Part shown: piece by piece, positions 4,009 through 8,321 of the stretch
Layout: each line of letters opens with the position of its first letter
How positions within the stretch are numbered: position 1 is the stretch's first letter
Origin: an uncultured Olsenella sp.
GTDB lineage: Bacteria; Actinomycetota; Coriobacteriia; Coriobacteriales; Atopobiaceae
Assembly (NCBI GenBank): GCA_900314535.1
Contig: OMVT01000018.1
Span: 1 to 44,738, forward strand
DNA: 44,738 bases
Direction of reading: 5' to 3'
Notes under the pieces: generated by a model
What the model was told of the DNA's origin: nothing
Database searches by the model: none
Seen by the model: the letters and a program-made list of their open reading frames with translations, nothing else
Program-made: the position numbers and the translations under genes

Positions 4009-4178
4009 GGCTGAATCCCCTTTCTCATTCATCCCGAATGGATATACCCAGCATGCCCAGCAAGCAGGGCATCTTCTTTTCAGCGGTCAGCTCTTCCTCT
4101 CAGATGGAGCGCCAGCTCCATCTCCTGAAGCCGTAGGTCCACTCCGCTACGTGAAACAAAGCGTTTACACAATCTTGC

Positions 4179-4208
4179 TTGCATCCCAAGATGGCTGTGG
4201 CTTATAGT
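4179..4208 (+). promoter_or_regulatory. Candidate promoter of the tryptophan-leader transcript
   Basis: TTGCAT (4179-4184) and TATAGT (4203-4208) are separated by 18 bases and lie about 65 bases before the leader-peptide start. An inverted repeat GTCCAG/CTGGAC (4227-4243, five-base centre) falls at or just after the expected transcription start and could be a 5' stem-loop or an operator. Confidence 0.5.
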
Positions 4209-4272
4209 GTGCGCAACAGACAGGACGTCCAGGAAATCTGGACATTGATTCGATTTGAGAGGAGCGCCAGAG

Positions 4273-4353
4273 ATGATTCGCATCGCCTACACCGCAGACA
4301 ACATGAATATGAACTGGTGGTGGCGCGATGTGAATACGATCGGTCAATCGTGA
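4273..4353 (+). CDS. Leader peptide with three consecutive Trp codons (attenuator)
   Basis: A 26-codon frame, ATG 4273 to TGA 4351-4353, reads MIRIAYTADNMNMN-WWW-RDVNTIGQS. GAGAGGAG stands eight to ten bases upstream, so it looks translated. Three TGG codons in a row (4315-4323) are extreme for a 26-residue peptide, Trp being the rarest amino acid, and are the signature of tryptophan-attenuated operons. A ribosome stalled there would mask positions 4321-4328, the strand that otherwise pairs with the region-2 segment downstream. It controls the two ECF substrate-binding genes that follow. No homology is needed; the codons and the hairpins are directly visible. Confidence 0.85.
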   Translation: MIRIAYTADNMNMNWWWRDVNTIGQS

Positions 4354-4418
4354 GTCTCTCGCGCCATTATACATACGCGAATCTTTGAGGGCTCCGGTAT
4401 GACCGGGGCCCTCTTTTT
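4321..4418 (+). promoter_or_regulatory. Tryptophan-type transcription attenuator with intrinsic terminator
   Basis: Three alternative pairings are visible. 1:2 is TGGCGCGA (4321-4328) with TCGCGCCA (4359-4366), eight perfect pairs. 2:3 (antiterminator) is TCGCG (4359-4363) with CGCGA (4376-4380), extended by GAGTCTC (4352-4358) with GAGGGCTC (4387-4394, one bulged G and one G-U pair). 3:4 (terminator) is 4387-4398 with 4402-4413, twelve pairs including one G-U, three-base loop, then five Ts. Stalling at the Trp codons blocks strand 1, frees strand 2 and forms 2:3, which sequesters the terminator's 5' arm. A ribosome reaching the stop at 4351 covers strand 2, so the terminator forms. The prediction is expression only when charged tRNA-Trp is scarce. 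Confidence 0.8.
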
Positions 4419-4477
4419 GTCTGTCCAATCCCATCAAGCAAGCAATTCAGAAGTTCCATTCGAAAGGAAGATCCATC

Positions 4478-5044
4478 ATGGCAGCAAACACCCAGCAGGC
4501 ACGTACCATCACCACCGAGGACCACGGCAAGCTCGATGTCCGCGCACTTGTCCTTCTTGCAGTCCTTCTGGCGGCAGGCTTCATCTTGAATTTTACGGTC
4601 GGCAAGGCAATATCGTCTGTCTCCGGCGGCATGATCTCCCCTGAGTTCATCATCTCGGCCTTCTGCCTCACGATCCTCGTGATCCGCCCGAACGTCGGCC
4701 AGGCCCTCATCATTGGCCTCATCTCCGCAGCCGTCATCCAGATCACGACGACCGCACCCTTCGTCGACTTCGCAGCTGAAGGCGTTGCCGCCATGCTCAT
4801 GTCCGTCATCGTTGCAGCTGGCATGAAGGGCTCCGCCAAGAAGATCACCCCTGCCATCGGCACCTTCGTCACGACCGTCGTCTCCGGCGTCATCTTCATG
4901 CTCATCCGTATCGCAATGGTCGGCGCTGCTGCCCAGCTCGCAGCTGCCATGCTCCCCGTCGTCTTCGCGACCGGCATCTTCAACGCAATCCTTGTCCAGG
5001 CCCTCTACTTCCCGATCTGCAAGGCACTCAAGGTCGAGGCATAA
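4478..5044 (+). CDS. ECF transporter substrate-binding (S) subunit, putative tryptophan uptake
   Basis: 188 residues; ATG 4478 follows AAAGGAAG. The first 22 residues are polar, then five to six hydrophobic helices follow, with no signal peptide and no ATPase motif, the build of a small integral S component. The pattern LLAVLLAAGFILN-x-TVG (about 30-46) and the segments PEFIISAFCLTIL and GLISAAVIQ recur almost unchanged in the next gene. It is the first structural gene after the Trp attenuator, which points to tryptophan or a precursor as ligand, by analogy with TrpP-type S proteins; this is inference. It would capture substrate and dock onto the EcfA-A-T module encoded downstream. Confidence 0.75.
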   Translation: MAANTQQARTITTEDHGKLDVRALVLLAVLLAAGFILNFTVGKAISSVSGGMISPEFIISAFCLTILVIRPNVGQALIIGLISAAVIQITTTAPFVDFAAEGVAAMLMSVIVAAGMKGSAKKITPAIGTFVTTVVSGVIFMLIRIAMVGAAAQLAAAMLPVVFATGIFNAILVQALYFPICKALKVEA

Positions 5045-5115
5045 GGCATCTATCCATAGCAGCCATCAGAGCACATCGATCAGAGCACAGAGTTAGCAAG
5101 AGAAAGAAGCACATC

Positions 5116-5667
5116 ATGGCAGACACGAACTCCCAGGCACGCACCGTCACCGCAGCAGCACACACCGGCACCGATGTCACGTCCCTCATCCTCCTGGCCG
5201 TCCTTCTGGCCGCAGGCTTCATCCTGAACCTCACGGTCGGAAACTCGCTTGCGATGGTCGGCATCAAGCCCCAGTTCATCATCGCTTCCTATGCCCTTGC
5301 CATCCTGCTCACGAAGGCTGACTTCAAGCAGGCTGCCATCTTCGGCCTCATCTCCGCTGCCGTCATCCAGTTCACGACCTCGATTCCGGGCCTCAACTTC
5401 GTGACCGAGCTTGTCGCCGCCCTTGCTATGGCTGCCCTCATCAAGCTCGACCTCAAGGTCGCCGGCAGGAACGTCACCCCGCTCGTTGCCGCCTTCGTGA
5501 CGACACTTCTCTCCGGCGCCCTCTTCGCTGTTGCCGGCACCCTCATCATGGGCGCAGCGCTCGCCACGGTCGCCGTGAAGATCCCGCTCGTCCTCGGCAC
5601 GGCCGTCTTCAACGCAATCGTCGTCCAGGCGCTCTATTTCCCCCTGAATAAGGTCCTGAACCGCTAG
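5116..5667 (+). CDS. Second ECF S subunit, tandem paralogue
   Basis: 183 residues; ATG 5116 is preceded by GAGAAAGAAG. It lies 71 bases after the previous stop with no terminator between, so it shares the attenuated transcript. It aligns with its neighbour along the full length: a polar start of about 22 residues, LLAVLLAAGFILN-x-TVG, KPQFIIASYALAILL, GLISAAVIQFTTS, a central polar K-rich stretch, and a final VFNAI-x-VQALYFP helix. Tandem S genes could have split ligands (for example tryptophan versus indole or another aromatic compound) or different affinities; the sequence does not decide. A strong terminator directly follows. Confidence 0.75.
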   Translation: MADTNSQARTVTAAAHTGTDVTSLILLAVLLAAGFILNLTVGNSLAMVGIKPQFIIASYALAILLTKADFKQAAIFGLISAAVIQFTTSIPGLNFVTELVAALAMAALIKLDLKVAGRNVTPLVAAFVTTLLSGALFAVAGTLIMGAALATVAVKIPLVLGTAVFNAIVVQALYFPLNKVLNR

Positions 5668-5686: not shown

Positions 5687-5720
5687 GAGAGGGCCGCAGG
5701 AGCACCTGCGGCCCTCTTCT
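5687..5720 (+). terminator. Intrinsic terminator after the S-subunit pair
   Basis: GAGGGCCGCAGG (5689-5700) pairs perfectly with 5705-5716 around an AGCA loop, followed by a TCTTCT tail. It separates the attenuated S genes from the ATPase/EcfT genes, so the energising module can be made independently. TATATA just upstream of the next gene (about 5750) may serve as its -10. Confidence 0.75.
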
Positions 5721-5782: not shown

Positions 5783-7582
5783 ATGGCAGAAAGCACGAAT
5801 ACGCCCCAGCCCATCATCGAGCTCAAGGATGTCTCCTTCACCTTCGCCTCGGCCGCATCCGACGGCACAGAGGCTCCGAAGCCGGCACTCTCCCATATCA
5901 CAGCCACAATCGGCACGGGCGAGTTCGTCGGCATCATCGGGCCTTCGGGAGCAGGCAAGTCCACGCTCGCATCCGTGATGTCTGGCGCCATCCCTCACCA
6001 CTTCAAGGGCACGCTCTTCGGAGCCACGCTCGTAGATGGGAAGGATACCTGCGACATCACGCTCACGGACATCTCCCAGATTGTAGGTTCGGTCCTCCAG
6101 GACATCGATACGCAGATGGTCGCCTCCGTCGTCGAGGACGAGATGCTCTTCGGCCTCGAGAACTTCGGCGTGCCCCATACAGAGATCGAAGGCAGGATCG
6201 AAGAGACGCTTGCAACTGTCGGCATCACCGATCTGCGTGACCGCGAGATCGCAACGCTCTCGGGCGGCCAGAAGCAGAAGGTCGCAATCGCTGCCATCCT
6301 GGCCCTATACCCCCGCGTCCTTGTGCTCGACGAGCCGACAGCCGCCCTCGACCCTGCCTCCTCGACCCTTGTCTTCGATACGCTCGAAGAAGTGCGCCGC
6401 CAGGGTGTCACGGTCGTCGTGATCGAGCAGAAGGTAGCCCTTCTCTCCAAGTACTGCGACCGCATCCTCGTGATGGATCAGGGCAAGCTCCTGCTCGACG
6501 GGACGCCCCGCGAGGTCTTTGCCCATGCCGAGAAGCTCCGCTCCATCGGCGTCGACTCTCCCCGTGTCGCCCGCGTCTACAACAGCCTCGCAAAGGATGG
6601 CCTGCTTCCTCAAGGCAAGCCCTGCCTCACCGTGGAGGAGGCTGCTGCCATCGAGGAGCGCCTCATCCCTGAGGCTTCCAGAACTGCTCCGGCCGAGGGA
6701 TCCTTCCGCCAGGGCTCGAAGCACGTCGTGGCAGCCAGGCCCCATGCAGAAGGGGCAGAGCCAGTTGTCAAGCTCCACGACGTCTGCTTCCAGTATCCCA
6801 ACGGCGGCGCTGCCGTGAAAGACCTCGAGATGAGCGTCTATCCCGGCGAGATGGTCGCCGTCGTCGGCCAGAACGGTGCCGGCAAGACGACGCTCACGAA
6901 GCTCCTGAACGGCCTTCTGAAGCCCTCCTCAGGCGAGGTCAGGATCTCCGGCCTCTCGACGAAGGAGGTTCCGACAAGCCGCATCGCAGCCCACTGCGCA
7001 ACGCTCTTCCAGAACCCCGACTACCAGCTCTGCAAGGATACGGTCTTGGACGAGGTGGCCTTTGGCCTCGAGCTCCAGGGGATTGATGAGGAGGAAGCAA
7101 AGAGGCGGGCACTCCGCGTGATCGAGCGCTTCGGCCTTCCCGAGAAGGAGTCTCCGTTCTCGCTCTCCCGTGGCCAGCGCCAGGTCGTCGCCCTTGCCTC
7201 CGTCGTCGTCATGGAGCCCGATGTCGTGCTCCTCGATGAGCCGACAAGCGGCCTTGACTACCGCGAGTGCATGACCGTCATGGACACCGTCTCCGAGATG
7301 GCCAATCGCGGCTGCGCTGTCATTATGGTCTGCCACGATATGGAGGTCGTCTCCGACTTCGCAGAGCGTCTGGTCGTTATGGCAAACGGGATGATCTTGG
7401 ACCGTGGCGCCACGCTCGACATGTTCAGCGATTCCTCCCTCATGAAGGAGGCCTTCATCGAGGCGCCGCAGATCGTCCAGCTCTCGCAGGTGCTCTCGCG
7501 CACCGTGAGCCCGGCCTTTGCCGGCATAAGCCAGGTTTCAGGCATCGTCGACCTTACCGAGGAGATGGTCCAGCGTGGTTAA
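5783..7582 (+). CDS. ECF transporter ATPase, two ABC domains fused (EcfA-EcfA')
   Basis: 599 residues. Start at ATG 5783 because AAGAAAGGG lies just upstream; two earlier in-frame ATGs (5738, 5756) lack a ribosome site. Domain 1 has Walker A GPSGAGKST (53-61), signature LSGGQ (about 158-162) and Walker B with VLVLDEP. Domain 2 has Walker A GQNGAGKTT (about 362-370), signature LSRGQ (about 461-465) and VVLLDEP. Both domains carry the D-loop and switch His expected of active ABC ATPases. The second signature has Arg where Gly is usual, a common variant. In most ECF systems the two ATPases are separate; here they are one chain joined by about 80 residues. The gene overlaps ecfT by eight bases. 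Confidence 0.92.
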   Translation: MAESTNTPQPIIELKDVSFTFASAASDGTEAPKPALSHITATIGTGEFVGIIGPSGAGKSTLASVMSGAIPHHFKGTLFGATLVDGKDTCDITLTDISQIVGSVLQDIDTQMVASVVEDEMLFGLENFGVPHTEIEGRIEETLATVGITDLRDREIATLSGGQKQKVAIAAILALYPRVLVLDEPTAALDPASSTLVFDTLEEVRRQGVTVVVIEQKVALLSKYCDRILVMDQGKLLLDGTPREVFAHAEKLRSIGVDSPRVARVYNSLAKDGLLPQGKPCLTVEEAAAIEERLIPEASRTAPAEGSFRQGSKHVVAARPHAEGAEPVVKLHDVCFQYPNGGAAVKDLEMSVYPGEMVAVVGQNGAGKTTLTKLLNGLLKPSSGEVRISGLSTKEVPTSRIAAHCATLFQNPDYQLCKDTVLDEVAFGLELQGIDEEEAKRRALRVIERFGLPEKESPFSLSRGQRQVVALASVVVMEPDVVLLDEPTSGLDYRECMTVMDTVSEMANRGCAVIMVCHDMEVVSDFAERLVVMANGMILDRGATLDMFSDSSLMKEAFIEAPQIVQLSQVLSRTVSPAFAGISQVSGIVDLTEEMVQRG

Positions 7583-8321
7583 TGTGATCGATTATGTACC
7601 GGGCAAGACGCTCCTCCACAGGCTCAATCCCGTGACGAAGCTCGCAATCGCTGCTGCCATCATCGTGGCGACATTCCTGTCCGATTCCTACGTGATGCTC
7701 CTGGGGCTTCTGGTCCTGACATTCGCACTCGGCTTCTATGCCAAGTCGCAAGGCAAGCTCTTCTCCCTCATGAAGCTCCTCGTCCCCATCGCAGTCGTGA
7801 TGCTCCTGCTCCAGACCGCCTTCGTGAGGACAGGCGAGCCGGTCTTCCTGTGGATGACAAGCACAGGCCTCATCACAGGCTCGAAGGCCTGCCTGCGCCT
7901 TCTGGGCGTGGCGCTTCCCCTTATCCTCATGCTCTCCGTCACGAAGCTCAACGACCTCGCGAATGCCTGCGTCGAGGTGCTCCATATCCCCTACCGCTAT
8001 GCCTTCACGTTCACGACAGCACTCCGCTTCGTTCCGGTCTTCTCCCAGGAGATGAACTCCATCATGGAGGCACAGTGCGCCCGCGGCGTGGAATACGACA
8101 CGAAGAACCCGATCAAGAAGCTCCAGCTCATGCTTCCGCTCTGCGTGCCCCTGCTTGTGACCTCGGTCGGAAAGACCGACGCCACAGCGCTCGCAGCCGA
8201 GCAGCGCGGCTTCTATCTGAGGACCCGCGAGAGCAGCTTCAAGCGCTACCCCATGGCAGCAGATGACAAGGGTGTCCTTGTGCTCTGCGTGCTTCTGATC
8301 GTCCTCGGCGTCCTCTTCTAG
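7575..8321 (+). CDS. ecfT: ECF transporter transmembrane coupling subunit (EcfT)
   Basis: 248 residues. GTG 7575 is used as start, overlapping the ATPase stop by eight bases, with GGAGAT eight bases upstream; translational coupling is likely. It has five to six hydrophobic helices (32-62, 70-95, about 100-120, C-terminal 230-248) and the EcfT cytoplasmic coupling-helix motif A-x-x-x-RG twice: AQCARG (around 165-170) and AAEQRG (around 210-215). These Ala-Arg-Gly motifs insert into the ATPase grooves. It would serve both S subunits encoded upstream and possibly others elsewhere in the genome. Confidence 0.9.
   Translation: MVNVIDYVPGKTLLHRLNPVTKLAIAAAIIVATFLSDSYVMLLGLLVLTFALGFYAKSQGKLFSLMKLLVPIAVVMLLLQTAFVRTGEPVFLWMTSTGLITGSKACLRLLGVALPLILMLSVTKLNDLANACVEVLHIPYRYAFTFTTALRFVPVFSQEMNSIMEAQCARGVEYDTKNPIKKLQLMLPLCVPLLVTSVGKTDATALAAEQRGFYLRTRESSFKRYPMAADDKGVLVLCVLLIVLGVLF

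Follow-up and report, generated by a model that had tools for sequence, protein, structure and literature searches.

A predicted tryptophan-codon attenuator ahead of a trpP-type ECF importer operon in an uncultured Olsenella and its likely exchange with T-boxes among Coriobacteriia

The DNA analyzed in this work, a stretch of 44,738 nucleotides from an uncultured Olsenella sp. (contig OMVT01000018.1, here termed the window), very probably carries a transcription attenuator of the classical ribosome-mediated kind, which responds to charged tRNA-Trp and governs a trpP-type ECF importer operon with the composition S1-S2-EcfAA'-EcfT. Since a Trp-rich leader and a switchable hairpin precede the S genes, the importer is probably made only under tryptophan shortage. 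We infer that ribosomes stall on the leader, that the switch responds to tRNA-Trp and that both S proteins bind tryptophan as their ligand. Leader anatomy, competing folds, covariation in the 1:2 and 3:4 pairings and conserved spacing all agree with Trp-codon attenuation, the interpretation originally put forward from the bare sequence.

The leader and its competing hairpins

The features of the locus and the evidence for each are as follows:

4178-4215, + strand: candidate promoter TTGCAT-18 nt-TATAGT with a putative transcription start at about 4215 (read by eye)
4260-4264, + strand: Shine-Dalgarno motif AGGAG of the leader ORF, 8 bases 5' of the ATG (sequence)
4273-4353, + strand: leader peptide ORF of 26 codons, MIRIAYTADNMNMNWWWRDVNTIGQS, ATG at 4273, TGA at 4351-4353 (read directly)
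4315-4323, + strand: three tandem UGG (Trp codons 15-17), candidate stall site (sequence, relatives)
4318-4328, + strand: segment 1, partner 4359-4369 (fold of truncated transcript, covariation)
4341-4369, + strand: segment 2, with 4341-4358 as 5' side of the antiterminator and 4359-4369 as partner of segment 1; leader stop inside
4387-4405, + strand: segment 3, terminator 5' arm and loop, used by the antiterminator (folding)
4387-4418, + strand: intrinsic terminator 3:4 with 12 pairs, a loop of 3 and five T (terminator scan and fold, covariation)
4478-5044, + strand: S1, first TrpP-like ECF S subunit, 188 aa (PF17099, 24.9 bits, cut-off 27.2; predicted fold)
5116-5667, + strand: S2, second TrpP-like ECF S subunit, 183 aa (PF17099, 31.1 bits, above the cut-off of 27.2)
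5689-5716, + strand: stable hairpin in the S2-EcfAA' spacer with a weak T-tract (-30.8 kcal/mol)
5783-7582, + strand: EcfA-EcfA' fused tandem ATPase (TIGR04520 and TIGR04521, both above cut-off)
7575-8321, + strand: EcfT (CbiQ family), GTG start, overlapping EcfAA' (PF02361, 93.4 bits)

The locus lies 3' of an Nramp gene and of a small ORF in divergent orientation; leader, terminator, S1, S2, EcfAA' and EcfT then follow one another on the plus strand. The sequence-only reading had assigned the attenuator and the two S genes to positions 4179-5667. Both are indeed located there. A start at 4179 also takes in the presumed promoter and a long ORF beginning with TTG; the leader proper begins at 4273, and the gene set runs on to 8321. 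The hairpin at 5689-5716 and the continuation of the gene set by EcfAA' and EcfT had gone unmentioned. A consensus scan did not pick up the TTGCAT/TATAGT promoter at 4178-4215.

The leader of 26 codons with three consecutive TGG is read directly from the sequence, just as first described. Among the 650 ORFs of 10-45 aa that start with ATG in the whole window, 3 have the motif WWW, and these most likely all represent the one leader because the ATGs at 4273, 4303 and 4309 share its reading frame. Folding of the entire leader yielded a z-score of -6.8 (200 shuffles). When the transcript was cut at 4406 and segment 1 left free, 4318-4328 formed a helix with 4359-4369 of 8 perfect pairs, exactly the number initially proposed for 1:2, or 11 pairs when G-U is included. 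Likewise, the twelve pairs plus Ts claimed for 3:4 were recovered: the terminator arms (4387-4398 and 4402-4413) are followed by TTTTT, and the complete terminator alone has a folding energy of -24.6 kcal/mol. With segment 1 covered and the transcript again cut at 4406, the antiterminator 2:3 is formed by 4341-4363 and 4376-4405 including an inner stem (-25.1 kcal/mol). Its outer part (4341-4358 with 4387-4405) consumes the terminator 5' arm as had been proposed, but with about 17 computed pairs on this arm and the loop instead of "about twelve".

The UGG codons at 4315-4323 overlap segment 1 and the UGA at 4351-4353 resides within segment 2. The hallmarks of a trpL-type attenuator are thus found together: a short, presumably translated ORF that has a Shine-Dalgarno sequence and Trp codons in tandem, mutually exclusive 1:2, 2:3 and 3:4 pairings, a terminator with a U-tract, and overlap of the stall site with segment 1 and of the stop codon with segment 2. 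When charged tRNA-Trp is scarce, the ribosome would halt at the Trp codons of the leader and cover segment 1. Segment 2 would thereby be freed and could form the antiterminator with the terminator 5' arm and loop, allowing read-through into the S genes. When charged tRNA-Trp is ample, the ribosome would proceed to the UGA inside segment 2 and mask this segment, such that 3:4 would terminate transcription. In the full-length fold of the untranslated leader, an 11-pair hairpin inside the leader ORF (4276-4286 with 4324-4334) rivals 1:2. On account of this competition the untranslated state may differ from that of E. coli trpL.

The S subunits and their probable ligand

The S system had been considered otherwise anonymous. 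This view can be abandoned, as both S proteins match the Pfam family TrpP (PF17099), S2 above and S1 just below the cut-off. The family is annotated as tryptophan transporter and occurs in B. subtilis. Because of this match, the leader supports a tryptophan annotation that already existed rather than creating it; the ligand prediction made from the leader was implicit in the family and now receives independent support. A sequence search of the PDB yielded no relative. The AlphaFold model of S1 (pLDDT 84.5) suggests the fold of an ECF S component: its ten best Foldseek matches are all S components (ThiT, RibU and one other), with probabilities of 0.87-1.00 and weak E-values (best 0.046). EcfA, EcfA' and EcfT, encoded 3' of the S genes in the same direction, constitute the energizing module predicted from sequence. 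In L051 (6608-9259), L052 (6547-9006) and L057 (6544-9045), a TrpP-like S domain and a tandem EcfA-EcfA' are united in a single polypeptide of about 820-880 aa. The hairpin between S2 and EcfAA' may reduce read-through or shield the S mRNA, and in this way might determine how much S subunit is made relative to the ECF module; a comparable hairpin is present at the corresponding place in many relatives.

An alternative which we regard as improbable holds that the attenuator is real while the substrate of S1 and/or S2 is not tryptophan but a Trp-related compound such as indole or a different Trp precursor. S1 and S2 are just 48% identical, and a gene for TrpB2, which can make tryptophan from indole, is present in the same genome, and two relatives have it in a common gene set with trpP. 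The match of both proteins to a family annotated as tryptophan transporter, on the other hand, argues for tryptophan itself. The Trp leaders and Trp T-boxes residing 5' of orthologues predict a role in tryptophan supply, with which either ligand is compatible.

Conservation of the attenuator and the nature of the signal

Eighty loci from a scan of named genomes served as the comparison set. The nearest named relatives are Olsenella/Tractidigestivibacter genomes of rumen and oral type, which points to a host within the Atopobiaceae. In 77 of the 80 loci the first S gene is preceded by a short ORF containing Trp codons in tandem; two of the remaining three (L042 and L044) stop at contig edges and the third (L063, Olsenella profusa) is without leader. 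In the Coriobacteriaceae/Atopobiaceae type, the first Trp codon and the stop are separated by a distance of 12 codons in 61 of 66 cases. The relatives retain S genes, Trp codons and hairpins all together; S genes kept without Trp codons or hairpins had been named beforehand as the pattern that would speak against attenuation.

Covariation had been suggested as a check on the three pairings. For 1:2 and 3:4 combined, 52 double-changed cells were counted in an alignment of 54 sequences as opposed to 21.4 expected, a number reached in none of 500 shuffles, and the covariation score fell from 0.272 to 0.134 or less when the helix partner was slid. The outer 2:3 helix (GGUC/GACC) is 97.8% paired over the 54 relatives and, being almost invariant, does not exhibit covariation among them; it is supported by conservation and folding. 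As the whole antiterminator was not recovered by RNAalifold from a truncated alignment, every sequence was folded separately and cut at the terminator loop (n=62). An antiterminator of at least 6 pairs was found in 62/62 sequences, with a median of 16.5 pairs and a median energy of -24.7 kcal/mol. Even after shuffling of the upstream sequence, the terminator arm often found a partner (median 10 pairs, mean -19.5 kcal/mol), and at least 48 of 50 shuffles were beaten by only 29 of the 62 sequences, such that folding sequence by sequence is only moderately discriminating by itself.

In L063, L023 and L024 a terminator before trpP is kept while a Trp leader ORF is absent. The genomes containing L023 (G140) and L024 (G124) both possess trpC. 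Gardnerella and other Bifidobacteriaceae have a distinct Trp leader (ending, for example, in AARMWWWQSSLWREFTLKF) and a terminator before TrpP (L067, L072, L074, L076, L077, L080, L081, L083, L092 and L104), the sequence of which is unlike the Coriobacteriia type. A short ORF ending in VRNRxxWWQAV, encountered repeatedly 5' of some loci, resembled another Trp leader but proved to be rplU (L21) read out of frame.

The pattern of conservation also bears on the question of whether the leader could be a TnaC-like arrest peptide sensing free tryptophan and not uncharged tRNA-Trp. TnaC is located 5' of genes for tryptophanase and a Trp permease. The leaders studied here have conserved residues on either side of their Trp codons and Gly-Arg/Gln before the UGA stop, as might be expected of an arrest peptide. 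The residues between WWW and G, however, vary freely, and the number and spacing of Trp codons differ among relatives (WW, WWW, WAW). Furthermore, in the Coriobacteriaceae/Atopobiaceae type the antiterminator's Gly codon reads GGU in 62 of 63 cases, as compared to 10 of 157 Gly codons in the genes of the window; a codon fixed at its wobble base indicates pairing of the RNA. An intrinsic terminator with covarying stems is present in place of a Rho site, and trpB2 and trpP of relatives bear Trp T-boxes, which are sensors of tRNA charging. All of this renders a TnaC-like peptide very unlikely. That the terminator is a constitutive or partial block and the leader ORF merely boosts S1 translation by reinitiation without any regulation, along the lines of the proposal that leader genes raise downstream translation (PMC4833913), is barely credible given the distance of about 125 nt from the leader stop to the S1 start, the terminator in between and the conservation of Trp codons, Trp-to-stop distance and 1:2/2:3/3:4 complementarity, a conservation for which reinitiation has no need.

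Further targets, T-boxes and known systems

The classical attenuator is not confined to the operon described here. A covariance model of the leader matches in 91 of 199 genomes of the order, mostly as a single copy and at trpP. Additional matches are located 5' of genes for a sodium symporter of the NSS family (PF00209), a predicted tryptophan importer, in five genomes that belong to a single genus (L218-L222; e.g. MNQASNVFSSIASSRAWWWRGL), and 5' of trpB2 (L224, L225, L227, L228 and L230). In two of the trpB2 loci the leader is followed by trpB2 and then by a gene in which an ATPase is joined to a TrpP-like S domain. The second-best leader match in the genome from which the window originates (E 0.106) is situated directly 5' of trpB2 (G000 contig 42, about 2100-2400; L233). 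This leader ends in LGAWWRTRTSKLPA and is equipped with a terminator of its own (GGGGCTCTCGG...CCGGGAGCCCC plus T-run) and a possible antiterminator. Weak matches of the RNA model in L223 and L226 fall, by eye, on a tRNA-like gene, and at a match outside the class (L266) there is only a terminator; these three were discarded. The controlled genes, TrpP here and trpB2 and the NSS symporter in relatives, fit a function in tryptophan supply. As trpC was not found in the genome at a completeness of 98.5%, the host is probably a Trp auxotroph living on uptake or indole salvage.

The sequence-only reading had set the leader against the T-boxes of Firmicutes. This was correct in spirit; the contrast is not confined to Firmicutes but exists within this order too, since most genomes of a sister family have a Trp T-box at the same gene. 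Among 21 more distant trpP loci (L121-L140 and L158), nearly all from this family (f2, presumably the Eggerthellaceae), a T-box motif was present 5' of 18, and the specifier is UGG in all 18. The other three (L124, L133 and L134) have leaders instead. When 12 of these T-boxes were run against Rfam, 12/12 matched RF00230 with E-values from 6e-15 to 9e-10, under the gathering score; the T-boxes of the relatives are therefore visible by E-value search only. In the window, there was no Rfam match at the gathering score, and a T-box motif is absent 5' of S1. T-box and leader were not found together at any trpP locus examined. In a quick tree of S proteins, the label T-box or leader changes at least four times, with at least three of the changes forced by well-supported branches.

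Both modes also coexist within single genomes: G059, G051 and G027 have a T-box at trpP and a leader at trpB2, and G196, G112 and G088 have a T-box with UGG specifier at trpE and a leader at trpP. The trpE operons of prototrophs in the order (L141-L156) carry T-boxes with UGG specifier, also where trpP uses a leader. A search for WW leaders near trp biosynthesis operons retrieved none; T-boxes are found there. Taken together, the T-boxes at trpP in the sister family and at trpE in prototrophs make it likely that Trp T-box and Trp leader have repeatedly replaced one another at trpP and trpB2 in Coriobacteriia. Their mixture within single genomes and the presence of several targets suggest with the same confidence that the leader serves a Trp-supply regulon and not one operon.

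The more interesting part of these findings is that two sensors of tRNA-Trp have probably taken each other's place more than once at one gene. Orthologous genes within one order provide a natural comparison of direct tRNA binding with ribosome stalling for one uncharged tRNA. The leader is an independent, sequence-based tie of the TrpP family to tryptophan, which extends over widespread host-associated actinobacteria (Collinsella, Olsenella, Atopobium relatives and Gardnerella), and trpB2 and the NSS symporter are concrete new targets for functional annotation. Many of these host-associated organisms appear to lack trpC and, for this reason, to depend on uptake. Our survey, which covered the open-licence PMC literature, did not reveal a Trp leader in Coriobacteriia or one ahead of an ECF transporter. 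The mechanism is textbook knowledge; its use on a trpP-type ECF transporter in place of a T-box looks unreported.

With E. coli trpL (Rfam Trp_leader) the system shares the four-segment logic and a stop codon positioned where the ribosome masks segment 2, but it differs in sequence and target gene, and at the gathering score the Rfam family has no match in the window. In B. subtilis, trpP is under TRAP control. B. subtilis trpP (yhaG) and the T-box-controlled transporters of Firmicutes resemble the locus in that tryptophan transporter genes are regulated through RNA according to tryptophan status, whereas the sensor is TRAP in the former and a T-box in the latter as opposed to a translated leader here. 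T-boxes, Trp T-boxes included, are known 5' of transporters in Firmicutes (PMC2494555; PMC9382623). The T-boxes of the sister family correspond to the leader in gene (trpP), signal (uncharged tRNA-Trp) and outcome (read-through) but bind the tRNA directly without a leader ORF, while ribosome stalling is proposed here. In the same phylum, Trp attenuators precede the trp operons of Corynebacterium and Streptomyces and trpS2 of S. avermitilis (PMC1262725). Just like the leader described here, these possess 2-3 UGG codons, a GC-rich terminator with U-tract and an arm shared by antiterminator and terminator. They serve genes for biosynthesis or TrpRS, whereas in the Coriobacteriia the leader is found at trpP-ECF, NSS symporter and trpB2 genes, with T-boxes at trpE.
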